Shown: positions 44,619 to 59,120 of the stretch, piece by piece | Position numbering within the stretch: position 1 is the first letter of the stretch | Layout: each line of letters opens with the position of its first letter | NCBI RefSeq assembly: GCF_042453785.1 | Contig: NC_091676.1 | Location: 1,619,501 to 1,683,500 of the forward strand | Origin: Malus domestica | Lineage: Eukaryota; Streptophyta; Magnoliopsida; Rosales; Rosaceae | Length of the DNA stretch: 64,000 nt | Reading direction: 5' to 3' | Made by a program: the position numbers and the translations under genes | The notes under the pieces: generated by a model | Told to the model about the DNA's origin: nothing | The model's input: the letters and a program-made list of their open reading frames with translations, nothing else | The model's database searches: none

Positions 44619-46051
<1,433 letters not shown>

Positions 46052-46301
46052 TCCCCCCTTAATCTTGTCTTGTGACGCCGATTGTGTTCCTTAATCTGAC
46101 AAAGTCTTTTTGCCTGAGTGGTTTGGTGAATATGTCGGCGACTTGGTCTTGTGACTTCACGTATTCCACTTGCACATCCTTTCTTGCAATACACTCTCTT
46201 ATGTAATGATAGCGGGTATCTATGTGTTTGCTCATGTCATGGAATATTGGATTCTTTGCTAGAGCTATTGCAGACTTGTTGTCGACATAGATCTCTATTG
46301 G

Positions 46302-48355
46302 CTATTCTTGTGGCATGTTTAATTCTTTTAGCAAGTTTCTCAGCCAGATTGCATGATAGACACATGAGGTAGCAGCTATGTATTCAGCTTCGCAGGTAGA
46401 GAGAGTGACAATCGATTGCTTCTTCGACATCCATGTGAATGCAGTGTTTCCCATAAAGAACACAAATCCAGTAGTGCTTTTTCTATCGTCGGAATCTCCT
46501 GCCCAATCACTGTCGCTATATCCAACAAGTTTGTAGTTATCAGAACTTGAATAGAACAAGCCAAAGTTAATAGTACCTTTAAGGTATTGAAGAATTCTTT
46601 TGGCGGTCTTCAAGTGTGTAGTTGTGAGATTCTCCATGTAGCGACTGACTAATCCGACGGCATAGAGAATGTCTGGTCTTGTGCATGTCAAGTAGCGCAA
46701 GCTTCCAACTAAACTCTTGAAAAATGTTGGATTTACACTTTCTCATTCGTCATGCTTGGTTAGTTTGACTCCGCACCCCACTGTCGTGCTTATGGGCTTG
46801 CAGTCTTTCATTTTGAACTTTTTCAGTATCTCATATGTGTAGCTTTCTTGGGAGATGAAAATGCTTTCTTCGTTCTGCTTGACTTCAATGCCTAGGTAGT
46901 ATGCCATCAGCCCGATGTCGGTCATCTCAAATTCTTTGGTCATCACTCTTTTGAACTCTTCATACATGCTTGGATTACTTCCGGTGAAGATTATATCATC
47001 CACATATAAGCACACAATCAGAATATCTTCATCTTTGACTTTAACGTAGAGAGCATGTTCATGATGGCACTTGATGAAGTTGTTTTCTTGGAAGTACTTG
47101 TCGATGCAACTATTCCATGCTTGTGGCGCTTGTTTTAACCCATAAAGGGCTTTCTTCAGCTTCAGAACTTTGTCTTCATGCCCTTTGATTTCATAGCCAA
47201 ACGGTTGCTGAATGTAGACTTCTTTTTCAAGGACTCCATTTAAGAAAGCAGACTTCACATCCATTTGTTGAATCTTCCATTTGTTTTGAGCTGCCAAAGA
47301 AATTAGTAATCGTATAGTTTCCAACCGAGCAACGGGTGCAAATACCTCATCATAGTCGATTCCGGCTCTTTGACTATAGCCCTTTGCCATTAATCTCGCC
47401 TTGTATCTTTCGACCTCTCCGTTGGCATTCTTCTTTGTCTTATACACCCATTTGACTCCGATGGCTTTGTGTCATTTCGGAAGAATAGTGAGTTCCCATG
47501 TATTGTTCTTATGGATTGCTTCAATTTCTTCATCCATTGCTTTCCTCCACTTAGTATCTTGCATTGCTTCTTGGAAGTCAACTGGTTCACAATCAGCAAA
47601 GAGACAGAAAAGTGTAGGATTATCAAGTCTTTCAGCTACCTCATAGAGATCTCGTAGACTTCTTATGTGTGGTACTTCTCTTTCATTTAGACTCCCACTT
47701 GATGATGCTGATGCTGGTGAATTGCCATGATTGGTTGATGTTTGTGAAGCAGGTGGAATAGTGGATTCTTGTTGAACCCCTCTTGCTTGCTCCATCATCC
47801 CTTGTTCATTCTCTTCTTCAAACTAAGGAAAAAAGTGAAGATCACCTGCATGAGAGCCAAAATCCCATTCTCATTCTTCATCGAACGTCACATCTCGACT
47901 GATTACCATCTTCCCATTGTTTGGATTATACAGCTTATAGCCTTTTGAATTTGAGTTATAGCCGATGAAGATGAACTTCTCACTTTTGTCGTCGAGTTTG
48001 GTTCTCCTCTCGTCTGGTACATGTACATGGGCTATGCTTCCAAAAATTCTTAGATGGGAGATACCTGGTTTTCTTCCACTCCACGCTTCTTGCGGAGTCT
48101 TTCCCCACACACTTCTTGTTGGAGACCGATTGGATTGGTAGACAACACATGATACAGCTTCTGCCTACAACTCCTTAGGCAATCTCTTACTTTTGAGCAT
48201 GCTTCGAGCCATGTCGAGGATGGTTCGATTTTTCTTTCCGCCACACCATTTTGTTGAGGGGATCTTGGAACTGTCAAATGTCGACGAATTCCATTGGCTT
48301 CACAGAATTCTTGAAATTCCTTCGAAGTGAATTCTGCTCTTCGATCAGATCTCAT
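46302..48355 (-). pseudogene. copia-1 pol remnants: integrase, reverse transcriptase, RNase H
   Basis: Fragments in different frames on the minus strand. Integrase pieces lie at 48050-48355 (with SPQQNGVAERK) and 47871-48110 (GRKPGISHLRIFGS), where the usual RSDRGGEF has become RSDRRAEF. The reverse transcriptase segment (46743-47447) keeps the catalytic YVDD. RNase H (46302-46700) has DSDWAGD and STCEAEY. Frames change after ERK in the integrase and between the RT and RNase H, and the far C-terminal part past 46302 is also out of frame. Confidence 0.85.
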
Positions 48356-48470
48356 GGCTTTAATCTTGCAACCACTTTCTTTTTCTATAGCAGCTTTGAA
48401 CTTCTTGAATGCTCCAAATACCTATGATTTCTACTTTAAGAAATACACTCAGGTTTTCCTTGAAAAATCA

Positions 48471-50132
48471 TCAATGAAGAGAAGGAAATAATTTATTTTT
48501 ACCCAAAGAGCTTGGTTTTATTGGACCGCACACATCGGTGTGAATGAGTTCGAGTGGCTTCTGGGCTCTTGTGGTTGACTCTTTTGGAAAGCTTTTCCTG
48601 AACTGTTTCCCAAGTAAACATCCTTCGCAAGCTTGATCAGGACGACTGATGCACGGTAAGCCTCTCACCATCTCCTTCTTGGATAATAACTCCAGTCCCC
48701 CAAAGTTAAGATGCCTAAAACGAAGATGCCAAAGCCATGATGTGTCTTTGTAACATATCTTGAGACACTTTGCAACATTGTTTTGAATGTTCATGGGAAA
48801 CATCCTATTCTTTGACATTTTCACCTTGGCAATTAATCTTCCTTTGTCATCTATAAGAAAAAGGCTATAATTTTTCATGTGAATATCATAACCTTTTTCT
48901 AAGAGTTGACCCAAGCTCAAAATGTTGCTTTTCATATTAGGCACGTAGTAGACATTTGAAATTAATTGGTGACCACCATTTTTTAAGGGAATAAGGATGT
49001 TACCTTTTCCTTTGATGGGTATTTTGGATTTGTTTCCAAAAGAAACGTTGCCACTCTCCGATTCATTGAGCTCTACGAACATGCTTTTTCTTCCGCACAT
49101 GTGGTTGCTAGCGCCGGTGTCAAGATACCATGTATAGTCTTGGTCTCCATCATTGTTCTTGCATGCTAGTAGCACAATGCCATTATCTTCTTTCTTTTCT
49201 TTCACATAATTGACCTTCTCATCAGGCCTGTTGCTTGGAGCTTTACATTCCCAAGCATAATGCCCAAACTTTTGACAATTGTAGCATTGAACTTGAGATT
49301 TTTCATACCTCAAGTTTGAGTGTCCTCTTCCATGACCATTTGTTGAGCTTCCTCCTTTTTCGTAGTTGTTATGATTGTTGAAGTTCCAACCACGTCCACG
49401 TCCATGTCCGCGACCTCGACCGCGACTTCTTTCGTACTGGCTTCTCTCATTATCCAATCTTTCTTCTTTCTTCTTTGGCTGGACATGCGTCTTGAGGAGC
49501 TGCTCATCATTCCCTTGCCTCTTCTTATGTTTCTCTTCATATGCTTGTAGTGAACCCATTAATTGCTCTATACTAATTTCTTCCAAGTTTTTTGTTTCTT
49601 CAATCGTCACGACAATGTGCTCGAACTTGGGGTCCAACGAGCGTAGTATCTTCTCCATAATTCTAACATTTTCTAACTTTTCTCCGTTTCTTTTTAATTG
49701 ATTGGAAACGGCTAAGACTCTTGAAAAATAATCAGAGATTGATTCAGACCCTTTCATTTGTAGAGATTCGAACTCACCTCTTAGTACTTGAAGACGAACC
49801 TTTTTCACTTGTTTGACTCCTTTGTAAGAGGTTTGAAGCTTCTCCCATGCTTGCTTGGCAGAGGTTGCACTCGAGACTTTCTCAAAGCCATTGTCATCTA
49901 ATGCTTGGTAGATGAGGTAGAGAGCCTTCTTGTCTCTCTTTCTTGAATCTTTCAAACTCTCATTCTGGGGTTGGGACAGAGTAGCTTCATCTTCTGGCTC
50001 AGTGTAGCCTTTCTCCACGACTTCCCATACATCATGTGCTCCCAAAAGGGCCTTCATTTTGATACTCCAATTATTGAAGTTGTTGTTGTCGAGCACTGGA
50101 ACTTGGAAGGCTGTCATAGCGTTGCTAGCCAT
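48471..50132 (-). pseudogene. copia-1 gag, protease and start of integrase
   Basis: One 553-residue open frame. It has the gag domain of the UBN2 type, an Arg/Gly-rich linker, a CCHC zinc knuckle CYNCQKFGHYAWEC, the aspartic protease site WYLDTGASNHM and the pre-integrase zinc-binding region ending CEGCLLGKQFR. The frame is lost just after GKNK at the beginning of the integrase core, where a one-base shift and then a stop occur. Confidence 0.88.
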
Positions 50133-50148
50133 AGCTCTGGTACCACTT

Positions 50149-51082
<934 letters not shown>

Positions 51083-51990: not shown

Positions 51991-52152
51991 TCAACTCCGG
52001 CAACGAGCATTAGCACTGCATCCACGGTTGTAGGGGTTACTCTGATTCTGAGCACCCGGCTTGCAGTTGTTGGAGGAAGCACCTCTCTGAGAGCAAGGCA
52101 CAGTGTTTCTCTGCAGAGCTTCATAGCTTATGTTTCGTGAGGTGGCTAAGAT
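51991..52152 (-). pseudogene. 3' part of a RALF precursor gene: mature peptide, cut off by copia-2
   Basis: Minus-strand frame of 53 codons plus stop starting ILATSRNISYEALQRN. It is a typical RALF mature peptide region with all four conserved Cys (PCSQRG, NNC, RGCS, RCRS). RALF peptides are secreted cysteine-rich hormones that bind FERONIA-type receptor kinases with LLG co-receptors and raise apoplastic pH. It lacks the start codon and signal peptide, which lie 5 kb away at 57164-57349. The YISY receptor-contact motif reads NISY here. Confidence 0.88.
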
Positions 52153-52153
52153 G

Positions 52154-52503
52154 TGTTGAATTATAAGTCTCTAGCTGATTAGAAATAAGTTGTGATGTTA
52201 ATATGTGTATGCACTTATGTTAAAATACTAAGTGAGAAGATATATAGATGTAAAGGCCATGAGTGCCATGTGTGATGATCTTATAGATTAGCTAAATGTG
52301 TGGCTGAGATCTGTTATTTTGAATGTCCATGATCCAGCTCAGGTTTTGTAAAGCTATATATCCTCTCTTGCACGTTGAGTGCAAGCTAGAGAGACATTTA
52401 ATGAAAACATTATTCTTCTGAGTAATTGCAGAAGAAAGAACCACCACCTTCTCTCTCTGTTTTCTTTTTCTCTTTCGAATTTGCTCTCTTTAAAATACTA
52501 ACA
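52154..52503 (+). repeat. 5' LTR of copia-2
   Basis: 350 bp, with a TATA-like 'ctatatatcc' near 52353. Seven mismatches to the 3' LTR by eye. Confidence 0.9.
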
Positions 52504-52641
52504 TGGCCTCAGAGCCTATGTTCGATTAGATCTGGGCGTGTTCTGTGCACTCAAACATCACCGGTTTTGGGTTCGGTGAAGTTTGCCGGAGTTTATTTGT
52601 GATCTAAGAACTACGTGTTCCTGGATTCACACAAGCTCACG

Positions 52642-55600
52642 ATGGCTGAATCTGGGAGTACTGAAGTAAGGACCCCGATCTTCTCCGGTGAGAACTACGA
52701 GTTCTGGAGAATCAAAATGGTTACCATTTTCAAGTCACATGGACTATGGAGTCTGGTGGAAAAAGGAATTTCAACTCCCGATTCGAAGAAGAAGAAAGCT
52801 AAGACTGATGAAGATACAGATGTTGATACTGACGATGATGAGAAAATGGCTGCAATCTTCATGAAAGATGCAAAAGCTCTCGGAATCATTCAAGGCGCAG
52901 TCTCCGATCAGATCTTCCCTCGAATCGCAAACGCAGATTCAGCAAAAATGGCATGGGATCTGTTATATGGCGAATATCACGGTGGGGATCAGGTAAGATC
53001 GGTGAAACTTCAAAATCTTAGACGAGAATTTGAATACACTAGAATGCGTGATGATGAATCTTTGACTGTGTATCTTACTCGTTTAAATGATCTGATTAAT
53101 CAAATGAAGACGTTTGGTGAAACTCTGTCAAATGAGAGATTAGTTCAGAAGGTGTTAATCAGTCTCACTAAGATGTATGATCCTATATGCTTAGTGATAG
53201 AAAATACCAAATGTCTAGAATCTGTTGAACTGCAAGAGGTACTAGCTATATTGAAGAGTCAAGAGCAGAGGTTTGATTTGCATTCCACCGATGTAACTGA
53301 GAGAGCATTTTCTTCTCTTACTGTTAATTCAAAATGGCAGAATCGAGGTTATGCTCAGTCTAGTATTTTTAAATCACAGAAAAATTGGAATAAAAAGGGT
53401 AAGAAGTGGGATTCAAAACCAAAGTTTCAGCAAAAATCATTCACAAATGTTGCACAGAATAGTACTTCTTCACAAGTTATGGGTCAAGAGAGTGTAAAAC
53501 CTCAATGTAAAGTGTGTTCAAAGTTTCATTATGGTGAATGTAGATACAATGGGAAATCGAAGTGCCATAATTGTGATAGATTTGGACATTGGGCCAAAGA
53601 GTGTACTGTTGGAAAGTCTGTTCAAAAGGCAAACTGTGCAAATCAAATGGAGGTGACAGGAAATCTATTTTATGCAAATTGTGCAGTTGCTGAGACTAAG
53701 GTCAATGGAGATTGGTACATAGATAGTGGTTGCAGTAACCACATGACAGGAAATGTGGATTTGCTGGTTGATGTGAGAACCAACATAGCTGGCAAAGTTC
53801 AAATGCCAACTGGAGATCTTGTGAATGTAGCTGGAATGGGATCACTGGTGATAGACACAAATAAGGGCAGAAAATATGTGAGAAAGGTAATGTATTTGCC
53901 TGGTTTAAAAAAGAATCTGCTAAGTGTAGGTCAAATGGATGAGCACGGATATTTTCTTGTGTTTGGTGGTGGAGTGTGCAGTGTGTATGATGGTCCATCA
54001 CTGGAATGTTTAATCATGAAAGTGAAGAAGAAAGTGAACATGTGTTATCCACTGGTTTTATTATCTGAGAATCAAGTAGTCTTAAAGGCTAGTGTCACTC
54101 ACTCCACTGAGATTTGGCATAAGAGATTTGGACACCTGCATCTTGATGGTCTCAAACAGTTGAGAGACAAGGATATGGTACACGGCTTACCTCAGCTTGA
54201 AGACTACAATGGAGTCTGTGCAGGTTGTCAATTTGGAAAACAACACAGAGAAGAGTTTCCAAGAAGTCAAGTACAGAGAGCAACTTCTCCACTTGAACTT
54301 ATACATGTTGATCTGTGTGGACCCATGAAAAATGAGTCAATTGCAGGAAATAAATATTTCATGCTTTTGGTAGATGATATGACCAGGATGATATGAATCT
54401 ATTTTCTGCGATACAAATCTGATGCATTCAACTGTTTTAAAAAATTCAAAGCCATGGTAGAACTACAAAGTGGTTTCAAGATCAAGTATCTGAGAAGTGA
54501 TAGAGGAGGGGACTTCAAATCATTCGAATTTGACTCGTTCTGTGAAAAAGCTGGAATTCAAAGGCAGTTTACCCTTGCATATACTCTACAGCAAAATGGA
54601 GTAGTAGAAAGGAAAAACAAGACTGTGGTTGAGATGGCTAAATCTATGTTGCATGAGAAGAGTTTACCATATTTTCTCTGGGCAGAGGCAGTTCACACAT
54701 CTGTGTATGTTTTAAACAGATGTCCCACAAGGGCTTTGAAAAACATCACACCTTTTGAAGCCTACTCGGGAAGGAAACCAGGAATAGCTCATCTGAGAGT
54801 ATTTGGTTCAGCATGTTATGTTCATGTTCCAAGTGAGCACAGACATAAACTTGAGCCTAAAAGTTTCAAAGGGGTGTTTGTGGGATATGCAACTTGTGAA
54901 AAGGGATATAGGGTGTTTGATCCCATATCAAAGAAGTTGATATTATCAAGGGATATTGTTTTTGATGAAGAAGCTGTATGGAATTGGGAAGTGAACTCTG
55001 AGCAGCCTATCTCTACTACTGAAAACCTTGTTTATGATGAATTAAGAACAGGAAGAAATGAAGGAATGATGCAGACTCCTACCTCATCAACAGCATGCTC
55101 ACCTAGGAATGTTCTTAGTATTGGAGATTCTGTCCAATCTAAGGGACTTACATCAGGTGAATCTGTAAACAACTCAAACTTGAGTGAAAAGGATACTCAA
55201 GCATTTGATCATACACCATTGAAGTGGAGAAAACTGGATGACGTCTTAGCACAATGTAATCTCTGTATTATGGATCCAGAGAAATATGAAGATGCCAAAC
55301 AAGATGTGTCTTGGTTAAAAGCCATGGAGGATGAGATGTTCATGATTGAAAAGAATGGCACCTGGATGCTTGTTGATAGACCAACTGAGAAACCTGTCAT
55401 TGGGGTTAAATGGGTGTACAAAACCAAATTAAACCTTGATGGTTCAGTGTTGAAGAATAAAGCAAGGTTAGTTGCAAAGGGCTATGCTCAAAAGCCTGGC
55501 TTGGACTACAATGAGACCTATGCACCAGTTGCTAGGTTAGATACTATTAGAACTTTGATTGCCTTAGCTGCACACAAGAGCTGGAAGTTGTATCAGTTAG

Positions 55601-56826
55601 ATGTGAAATCGGCTTTTTTGAATGGAGTTTTACAAGAAGAGGTCTATGTTGAACAGCCCGAAGGTTTTGTTGTTAAAGGCAAGGAAGAAAAAGTGTACAA
55701 ACTTCCTAAGGCTCTCTATGGTCTAAAACAAGCTCCACGAGCTTGGTATGGTGAAATTGATAACTATTTCACACAGTGTGATTTTGAGAAGAGCCTAAGT
55801 GAACCAACTCTATACATAAAGGCAAGGGGAGAAGATGTCTTGATTGTTTCCATCTATGTAGATGACATAGTCTACACTGGAAACTGTAAAACAATGCTAG
55901 AAAAATTCAAGGAAGATATGAAGATGAAATATGAGATGACAGATTTGGGATTGTTACATCACTTTCTTGGAATGGGGGTGATCCAAACCGACTCTAGCAT
56001 CTTCATTCATCAGAAGAAGTATGCAAGTTCTTTACTAAGCAAGTTCGGTCTGAATGAGTGCAAATCTGTGATCACACCACTTGTGGCAACTGAGAAATTA
56101 ACTAAAGATGATGGAAGTGGAGCAGTAAGTGAAGAGTTATACAGAAGCATTGTGGGAAGTCTTCTATATCTCACTGCTACTAGGCTAGACATCATGTATG
56201 CATCTAGTTTACTTGCTAGATTTATACACTGTCCTACTAGCAAGCATTTTGGAACTGCCAAACGTGTGCTCAGGTACATCAAAGGGACTATAGACTATGG
56301 TTTGGAGTATACAAAGGGCAAGAAAGCAATGTTGATTGGCTATTGCGACAGTGACTGGGGTGGATCATCAGATGATAGCAAAAGTACATCTGGATATGCA
56401 TTTTCTTTTGGAAGTGGAGTTTTTTCTTGGGCTTCAGTTAAACAAAGTTATGTGACATTATCCACTGCAGAAGCAGAGTACATAAGTGCATCAGAGGCTA
56501 CTACTCAAGCTATATGGCTGAGATTTGTCTTGGAAGATTTCGGAGAACTACAGACTGAAGCCACTTCTCTTCACTGTGACAACACTTCTGCCATTGCAAT
56601 CACTAGGAATTCTGTCTTTCATCAAAAGACCAAACACATAGACAGAAGGTATCACTTCATTAAAGATGCACTGCAAGAAGGAATCATTGATTTGATTTAT
56701 TGTCCCACTGAAGAGCAGATAGCAGATATTTTCACAAAACCTTTAGCCAATGATCGGTTCAACTATCTCAGAAATTTGCTTGGAGTGAAATCAGCTCAAG
56801 ACTTAAAGGGGAGTGTTGAATTATAA
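52642..56826 (+). CDS. copia-2 gag-pol polyprotein, single in-frame stop at 54394-54396
   Basis: The start MAESGSTEV at 52642 is preferred; an upstream in-frame ATG at 52615 would add nine residues. Domains in order: UBN2-type gag; zinc knuckle [14 protein letters not shown], preceded by a second Cys/His-rich stretch; protease [11 protein letters not shown] (Ser in place of the more usual Thr, DSG); pre-integrase zinc finger ending [11 protein letters not shown]; integrase core; reverse transcriptase with YVDDIVYTG; and RNase H with STAEAEY. A TGA at 54394, where the family has Trp in the integrase, breaks the frame. The same frame resumes and stays open to 56826, just inside the 3' LTR. So copia-2 is one substitution from an open frame but cannot make integrase as it stands. 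Confidence 0.88.
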
Positions 56827-57163
56827 GTCTCTAGCTGATTAGAAATAAGTTGTGAAGTTAATATGTGTATGCACTTATGTTAAAATACTAAGTGAGAAGA
56901 TATATAGATGTAAAGACCATGAGTGCCATGTGTGATGATCTTATAGATTAGCTAAATGTGTGGCTGAGATCTATTATTTTGAATGTCCTTGATCCAGCTC
57001 AGGTTTTGTAAAGCTATATATCCTCTCTTGCACGTTGAGTGCAAGCTAGAGAGACATTTAATGAAAACATTATTCTTCTGAGTAATTGCAGAAGAAAGAA
57101 CCACCACATTCTCTCTCTGTTTTCTTCTTCTCTTTCGAATTTGCTCTCTCTAAAATACTAACA
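56814..57163 (+). repeat. 3' LTR of copia-2
   Basis: 350 bp, directly after the polypurine tract. Its first bases contain the polyprotein stop codon. Confidence 0.9.
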
Positions 57164-57349
57164 TCGCCTGCTAATCTCCGAGTCCATGCCAAACTCATCA
57201 TCACGATCATCCATACACTCTGCTACAGAACCCTCGCAGCGAGGTCTCACTGGAACCCAGCTCACCCCATGATCGCCGCCTGCATCAACGGAGATGATCA
57301 GAGCGGCCACGAAGGCCAAGGAAAAGATAATCGCTGAGGAATTGGCCAT
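57164..57349 (-). pseudogene. 5' part of the RALF precursor gene: signal peptide and propeptide
   Basis: From the ATG at 57349, 62 codons on the minus strand: a hydrophobic signal peptide (SSAIIFSLAFVAALIISVDA), a propeptide with CEGSVAECM and an acidic stretch DEFGMDSEISRR. The last RR is the first half of the RRIL subtilase (S1P) processing site. Reading on into the LTR gives one codon and then a stop. Together with 51991-52152 the length would be about 115 residues, normal for a RALF precursor. It can still be transcribed, but it would give only a propeptide without hormone. Confidence 0.88.
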
Positions 57350-57494
57350 AGGTTTTGGTATGGTCTGTGTTTTTAGCTGCCAACTTGTATTTTGTTGTAC
57401 GCCTGTTTAATTACAGAGGGAGACAGATGAGGCGGCAAGAGAGAGAAGATAAAGTTGGTGAATTCTTATGTGTATATTATTGCACTCCATTGTG

Positions 57495-57503
57495 TTATTT
57501 ATA
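57495..57503 (-). promoter_or_regulatory. TATA box of the RALF gene
   Basis: TATAAATAA on the minus strand, about 145 bp upstream of the ATG at 57349. The promoter side of the split gene is intact. Confidence 0.55.
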
Positions 57504-59120
57504 GTAGTAAAAAGTATAAAAAAGGGAAAGTCCTTGTTCTTTAATTAATCCATAGTAGTAAGAAGGGAAAATCCTTATCTTTCAGGTAATCCATCTTAGA
57601 TAAGACACAATCTACAAGATATTCTGCAGTCCCATAAGGATTTTTTACACACATTCCTAGTAAGTTTGGACTTTGATATATTTAAATTTGATTAAATGAA
57701 AAATTGGATGCTGATTTCTTCAAGGAGGTGATTGTGGATGCAAATTTCTCCCTTATTGATCTTGGACAAAATTGCACCTACAAAACAATTAACACCTTAG
57801 GATCAAGGCCAAGAGCCTCACGCGCCCACGATGAACGCCGGGGGGGGGGGAGCTTTGGCCGAAGAACCTCTGATGCCAAAGTTAGAATTTAGAGAGAAAA
57901 GTGTTTAGAGAGTATTGAGAATTTTGCAAGTGTGTTGGACCTAGGTTTTGGTGAAAATGGGAGTCAATACATAGGGCATAGGGTGTAACTTATGGTTTAA
58001 TGTGTGATTTAATGGATTAATTAGGCAATTAATCCATTGATTGGTTAATCAACACATTTTTGGAATAAATATTTTGGGGGTTATGTAATTTATACCTTGT
58101 GGAAAATATAGAATGAGGATGGATGAAATAACTTTGAATTTGTTACTTATTTTGGGCACGTTTGATTTGGTTGAAGGATAATTAACCGCTGCTCGCACGT
58201 AGGAATGCCGTTGTAACTCAAGAGTATTTTTGTCTTCTTTTGTCCAAAAATCCATGTGTTGCCTTGTGATTATTTTTGGCTCCATAGTGATTACTTAAAT
58301 GACTTGCACTAATTAGCCTTAGGGCTAGTTTGGTATTCCTGTGCTTTGAAAAAAAAACTGCTTCTGCTGTGAAATAAAGCGGTAGAGTGTTTGGTAAACT
58401 TTTTTGTAAAAGTGCTTTTAGCAAAAAAATCAGTGTTAAAGTGCTTGGTAAATTTTTATATAAAACTGCTATGATTATGTTAAATGACTAAAAATGATAT
58501 AATGTTAAATTTAATATATAATTTTTTATTTTTTAATCTCTATAATTGTCGAGTCATCCAAACTCTTCCATTTTCCAAATCCCATTTATAATTCTAGAGT
58601 CATCCTTTTCGCCTAATTTTTTTTTTCATTTGACTTTCAGATCCGATATGTTAGCGTTCCGTTGGTCATCAGACAGGATCACACTAAGCGTAGGCTGTTT
58701 CCGGATCAGATCTAGCCGAAGAGCTCTCCCCCTATAACTTGAATATGGCAGTTTCCCACTAGCCGCTTAAAGGAGTACTCAAGGATTACCCTATTACCAA
58801 TCTCGAATTGGCCTCCTACTGTCCTCGCTAAGAAAGAGTCTGCCCGCTTAATTCAATGAAGGAGTTGATATTTATCTATTAAAGTAATTTATCAATTACG
58901 GAATTCAAGGTCGGATGATATCAGTTCTCTGTACCCAAGAAGTTCGGGGAAAGGAAATAGAAGCAATGCAGACTGAATTTGACGAACTCCCCACCCATAC
59001 TAAAAAGCAAATAAAGACCCATGTTTAGCGTCCTCCACTCTAAGGACCACATTATTGAATATGATAGTAGACAGATGGCATTATCCTGTATTGACAAATG
59101 TCATAATCGTGTGAGATCAT
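57504..59120. other. Intergenic between RALF promoter and copia-3
   Basis: No gene recognised. It holds a G10 run at 57841-57850, a decayed MITE-like block at about 58320-58480 ('gggctagtttggtattcctg', 'aaagtgctt' repeats), and a segment of different composition at about 58640-59060. In the latter, one frame reads KDYPITNLELAS, reminiscent of a gypsy RNase H motif, but with stops on both sides. Confidence 0.4.

Follow-up and report, generated by a model that had tools for sequence, protein, structure and literature searches.

A gene of an apple RALF tandem cluster split within its RRIL motif by a copia retrotransposon

Results

The two halves of a RALF gene flank a copia element

We analyzed a 64,000-nucleotide stretch of DNA from Malus domestica (the window; contig NC_091676.1, here C16, positions 1619501-1683500) in which the two parts of a RALF peptide precursor gene, designated copy A, lie on either side of a copia retrotransposon, copia-2, that is bounded by paired long terminal repeats (LTRs) with TG...CA ends. 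On the minus strand, the propeptide half (57349-57164) encodes 62 residues, from the Met through ...ISRR, and the mature half (52152-51991) reads ILATSRNISY...RCRS and then a stop; both are open throughout in translation. Of the bases next to the element, 52153 belongs to the gene and 57164 is additional to its original sequence. Searched against Pfam, the mature half matches the RALF family (PF05498; E=1.9e-16, with a score of 61.3 bits where 22 is the cut-off); in PDB it matches a chain of RALF-like 4 (E=1.2e-10). It holds the four conserved Cys (in VPC, NNC, RGC and ARC), which also align across its relatives. No Pfam family matches the propeptide half at E values of 1 or below; the half is nevertheless 94, 97 and 98% identical to the propeptides of three whole RALF genes nearby and is therefore a RALF match that is not due to chance. 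Its N-terminus is hydrophobic, as judged by eye only. An earlier note on this DNA had given the same coordinates for both halves, and translation and the Pfam match bear these out.

The mature half was used to search the genome (651 Mb, 19 contigs) and found at least 18 matches at E<=0.001. Four RALF copies stand in tandem on the same strand of C16, at 1671494 (A), 1690458 (B), 1732632 (C) and 1747448 (D), and B, C and D, which lie 19-76 kb from copy A, are whole precursors of 115 residues. A search with the propeptide returned eight places including copy A, the five closest of the other seven being 87-98% identical; at all of the other seven the mature half follows the propeptide directly, and only at copy A are the two separated. 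In a self-comparison of 152 kb, the surroundings of A match those of C (93-98%) and the surroundings of B match those of D (96-97%), so that a block duplication of an ancestral RALF pair probably gave rise to A and B on the one hand and C and D on the other.

After exclusion of gapped columns, two-against-two sites among the four copies were counted over the 500 bp adjoining the break in either flank; a single three-state site in the 5′ flank does not enter the count. All 68 sites (45 upstream and 23 downstream) set A and C against B and D, and none in these stretches pairs A with B or A with D. By this uniform pattern both halves belong to one gene, the sister of copy C. With gaps left out, A and C are identical at 183 of 185 coding positions in the 5′ part (98.9%) and at 161 of 163 in the 3′ part (98.8%), at 97.6% of positions within 500 bp on either side, and over longer flanks at 96.0% (1.9 kb, 5′ side) and 97.8% (0.8 kb, 3′ side). 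The site patterns, together with the LTR pair between the halves, uphold the earlier proposal that one RALF gene was split by one copia element.

Table 1. Features of the split RALF gene and of copia-2, in window coordinates
Feature	Position	Strand	Basis
5′ half of copy A: signal-like N-terminus and propeptide	57164..57349	-	open-frame translation; alignment to copy C
3′ half of copy A: last base of second Arg codon, then mature peptide ILATSRNISYEALQRN...CRS-stop	51991..52153	-	translation; Pfam RALF
Promoter side of copy A	57350..57749	-	aligns with copy C save small gaps; TATAAA retained at 57503
Copia LTR retrotransposon (copia-2), antisense to RALF, 5.0 kb	52154..57163	+	LTR pair, boundaries, domains
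5′ LTR, 350 bp, TGTTGAATTA...AATACTAACA	52154..52503	+	ends match other copies of the copia-2 family
3′ LTR, 350 bp, 7 differences from 5′ LTR	56814..57163	+	LTR comparison
Open stretch of copia-2, gag to gag-pre-integrase	52603..54396	+	ends at in-frame stop 54394-54396
Remaining frame of copia-2, SH3-like and reverse transcriptase domains	54397..56826	+	Pfam domains
Single extra T between 3′ LTR and target sequence	57164..57164	+	comparison with intact copies

Position of the break relative to the S1P motif

The RRXL site of the precursor is divided between the halves of copy A, RR closing the one and IL opening the other, and the entire RRIL is present in B, C and D. On the sense strand, B and C read ...AGCAGGCGC followed by ATCTTGGCC at the target site, D has AGCAGACGC there, and copy A reads ...AGCAGGCGA up to the LTR on the upstream side and C ATCTTAGCC on the downstream side. 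The insertion point thus lies inside the second Arg codon of RRIL (CG^C), and the extra base on the propeptide side keeps that codon an Arg codon. Past the break, the 5′ open frame of copy A runs through ...SRR into one Cys encoded by the LTR and then a stop (SRRC-stop). The earlier note was thus right to place the break in the RRIL motif, and its placement between RR and IL fails in that the break falls within a codon and not between codons; similarly, its statement that the remnant encodes exactly the propeptide is nearly correct, save for the one additional Cys.

The same note had placed the break at the S1P cleavage site. According to PMC13082318, S1P cleaves RALF23 at RRIL|A, between Leu88 and Ala89. 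Since the cut comes after the Leu, the break in copy A lies in the recognition motif, two residues short of the scissile bond, and this claim is not sustained. The RRIL motif occupies 12 of the 348 coding bases of the gene, and for a single insertion a hit in such a motif is unremarkable, chance being sufficient. We therefore rejected the idea that the position has meaning for S1P processing; it is a coincidence without demonstrated meaning.

The copia-2 element

By domain order, copia-2 has a copia-type gag and an integrase region that precedes the reverse transcriptase. Retrotran_gag_2 and gag_pre-integrs were found in its first piece (Pfam, E up to 1) and SH3_retrovirus and RVT_2 in its second (E up to 1e-5); at these thresholds neither piece yielded a match to rve, the model of the integrase core. 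Like plant Ty1/copia elements it thus combines gag, gag-pre-integrase, SH3-like and RVT_2 domains with TG...CA LTRs, and it differs from the usual form in lacking a target-site duplication and in carrying a single in-frame stop. This stop sits between the gag-pre-integrase and SH3-like pieces and hence, by domain order, in the integrase region. Five relatives were compared over a 243-base piece (three 97-98% identical, two 74%), and none of the five has a stop at the aligned codon. An integrase defect predating the insertion is accordingly unsupported, and the stop itself cannot be dated.

The junctions were also compared with those of related elements. Copia-2 is flanked by AAGATG on the left and by T and then CGCCTGC on the right, so that its ends show no 5-bp target-site duplication (AGATG vs TCGCC). 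The empty site is present in B, C and D, and relative to it no base of the target was lost, none was duplicated and one T was added. A genome search with the LTR listed 40 matches, which fall into 30 loci; 24 of these form 12 pairs including copia-2, and six are unpaired. Among the 11 other pairs listed, seven have perfect 5-bp duplications (one of them, at C3:22.93, only if the second of two candidate LTR ends is chosen), one has four of five bases and two have none; the remaining pair could not be judged, its 5′ LTR match starting at position 8. With seven of 11 perfect, the missing duplication belongs to the copia-2 insertion and is not a habit of the family; its lack or loss is a minority state in the family that is not unique to copia-2.

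Order and age of the events

The divergence (K) between the two LTRs of copia-2 is 0.020. With 6.5e-9 or 1.3e-8 substitutions per site and year, this corresponds to an age of about 1.6 or 0.8 million years, respectively. Between A and C, K is 0.035 over the two flanks combined, which is above the LTR value, with 0.041 for the 5′ flank and 0.023 for the 3′ flank. These values agree with an order in which the duplication came before the insertion of copia-2, an order that rests mainly on the empty site in C.

The coding parts of copy A were compared with those of its siblings. Copies A, B and C share one mature peptide sequence, from which that of D departs at a single residue. Between A and C five codons differ, including the junction codon, with a single amino-acid change at which A agrees with B and D, and apart from the insertion no sign of decay was seen in the coding parts of A in this comparison. 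An undecayed frame is as expected, the insertion being young. Separately, copy C has Arg at residue 38 of the propeptide, where A, B and D, like the C11 and C3 relatives, have Cys.

Sequence variants and selection in the C16 cluster

All four C16 copies have NISY for YISY, EAL for GAL, SNNC for YYNC and a two-residue insertion before NPY, and the alignment shows canonical motifs, including YISY, in their closest relatives on C11 and C3. PMC7073784 lists NISY among the YISY variants of RALFs; as a listed variant, it bears on assignment to the canonical YISY class and not on membership in the RALF family. Copy A resembles the RALFs with an S1P site (the AtRALF23 class and the Rosaceae RALFs of PMC7073784) in its signal-like N-terminus, propeptide, RRIL motif and four Cys. 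Unlike the AtRALF23 class, the C16 copies carry NISY, SNNC and the two extra residues before NPY, and copy A is in addition split.

In the mature part, C and D differ by a nonsynonymous divergence (dN) of 0.009 and a synonymous divergence (dS) of 0.193, with the two inserted codons left out. The variant is thus retained between C and D, and from this we consider the C16 cluster to be probably functional. Compared with the C11 gene, B, C and D have a dN of 0.053-0.062 and a dS of 0.090-0.158 in the mature part, and of 0.043-0.073 and 0.284-0.322 in the propeptide. In either part dN is thus the lower of the two, and we make no claim that the mature peptide of the cluster is under positive selection.

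Paired RALF genes were found on C3/C11, C4/C12 and C13/C16. PMC7073784 names one apple RALF tandem pair, Md-RALF7/Md-RALF8. A further RALF-like copy at C16:27911379 looks degenerate, its match covering query residues 1-41 and its C-terminal part departing from the family.

Neighboring copia insertions

Another element, copia-1, lies on the minus strand at 45564-50639, with LTRs at 45564-46051 and 50149-50639 that are 97.8% identical. It apparently lies within protein-coding sequence, that of a gene for a plant tyrosine phosphatase (50600-51082; Pfam Y_phosphatase2, 1.3e-36, the match beginning at profile position 41). The duplication AGCCC is present on both of its sides, and an empty site is found near C16:1731087, in the C block. 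Two adjacent genes of the A block, the RALF gene and the phosphatase gene, thus both seem to be split by copia elements. A third copia-type element, with gag and integrase domains, extends from about 59055 to beyond 64000; it has an apparent CACAT duplication and is absent at the matching place in the C block. The A-B block seems to be collecting copia insertions.

Discussion

We propose, with high confidence, a duplication of a tandem block followed by the splitting of copy A by a copia element, which would have left A as a young pseudogene whose loss is likely buffered. In the proposed sequence of events, copia-2 would have inserted after the block duplication, in antisense orientation and within the second Arg codon of RRIL. 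The antisense insertion within RRIL is itself read from the junctions. Transcription from the retained promoter side would then give at most a 63-residue propeptide ending in SRRC. The hormone half, the translation of which contains no Met, would have neither a start codon nor a promoter of its own and would lie behind an antisense element; the product of copy A is thus likely to be nothing or the 63-residue propeptide. Loss of A is likely to be buffered because the three whole copies encode the same mature peptide or, in the case of D, nearly the same one. Several points weigh against this proposal: one assembly was searched, the K of 0.023 for A and C in the 3′ flank hardly exceeds that of the LTRs, so that the order of events leans on the empty site in C, a textbook copia insertion would show the target-site duplication that is absent here, and that copy A has probably just lost its function is something we infer.

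That the halves come from two paralogues joined by a rearrangement, for example by recombination between two copia elements, is what the earlier note had named as the case against a single split gene. Four near-identical tandem copies are available for such an event, which would also account for the missing target-site duplication; however, the two-against-two sites pair A with C on both sides without exception, and, placed on C, the two flanks join at one base position without the loss of a base. We therefore rejected this origin, to which we assign a very small probability. Just as little credit can be given to an artefact of assembly or haplotype in which the element or its junctions were misjoined. 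A repeat-rich tandem region with an odd junction would invite such an error, but both LTRs of copia-2 stop at the usual ends of the family and the flanks continue with C over the 0.8 and 1.9 kb that were compared. Continued function of copy A, through a secreted propeptide-only peptide or through an mRNA from which splicing removes the element like an intron, appears very improbable, if slightly less remote than the two preceding possibilities. In its favor are the 96.0% identity of the promoter side to C over 1.9 kb, the 5′ half open up to the break and the fact that the sole amino-acid difference of this half from C is a residue shared with B and D. Given the small K of the LTRs, the open frame may simply reflect youth, and a stop follows one codon past the break. 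We know of no function of a RALF propeptide. A literature search on RALF propeptides, pseudogenes and transposon insertions returned no publication, and none of the publications listed in the searches made concerned this split RALF gene.

Within the proposed splitting of A by copia-2, the mode of insertion is less clear. We tentatively suggest, as a reading rather short of an even chance in its full form, that a double-strand break in the RALF gene took up copia-2 as linear cDNA, independently of integrase, and that the extra T was left beside the LTR by the tRNA primer. The T equals the base that follows the LTR inside copia-2, a match expected by chance once in four. Joining of linear cDNA at a break seems to us somewhat likelier than a normal insertion whose duplication was later altered, the latter calling for a 4-base loss and one further change and being a substantial alternative all the same. 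In the integrase-independent, Rad52-dependent retrotransposition of Tf1 reviewed in PMC12786077, insertion takes place where the target is homologous to the element or into elements already resident. Copia-2 resembles this route in lacking the 5-bp duplication that is the signature of integrase and differs from it in that its target is a host gene. No homology between element and target was listed in the self-comparison of the region (matches of at least 300 bp), for which no dedicated search was made. End joining at a break would be the route taken by copia-2. If cDNA capture is true, the locus is a clean natural record of an end-joined copia insertion for which intact paralogues supply the exact empty site. 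The junction is of some use for the study of how retrotransposon DNA enters chromosomes.

In its general pattern, the splitting of the RALF gene is gene breakage of an ordinary kind that left a slightly unusual scar at the insertion. It shares with other transposon-disrupted tandem duplicates the pattern of one broken copy beside whole ones, with no essential difference, and the scar without a target-site duplication is its only, mildly unusual, point. An annotation could mistake the two halves of copy A for two short genes. The locus is a well-resolved example in which a young retrotransposon cost a tandem array one of its hormone genes and three whole siblings serve as controls; it leaves the view of RALF biology unchanged.

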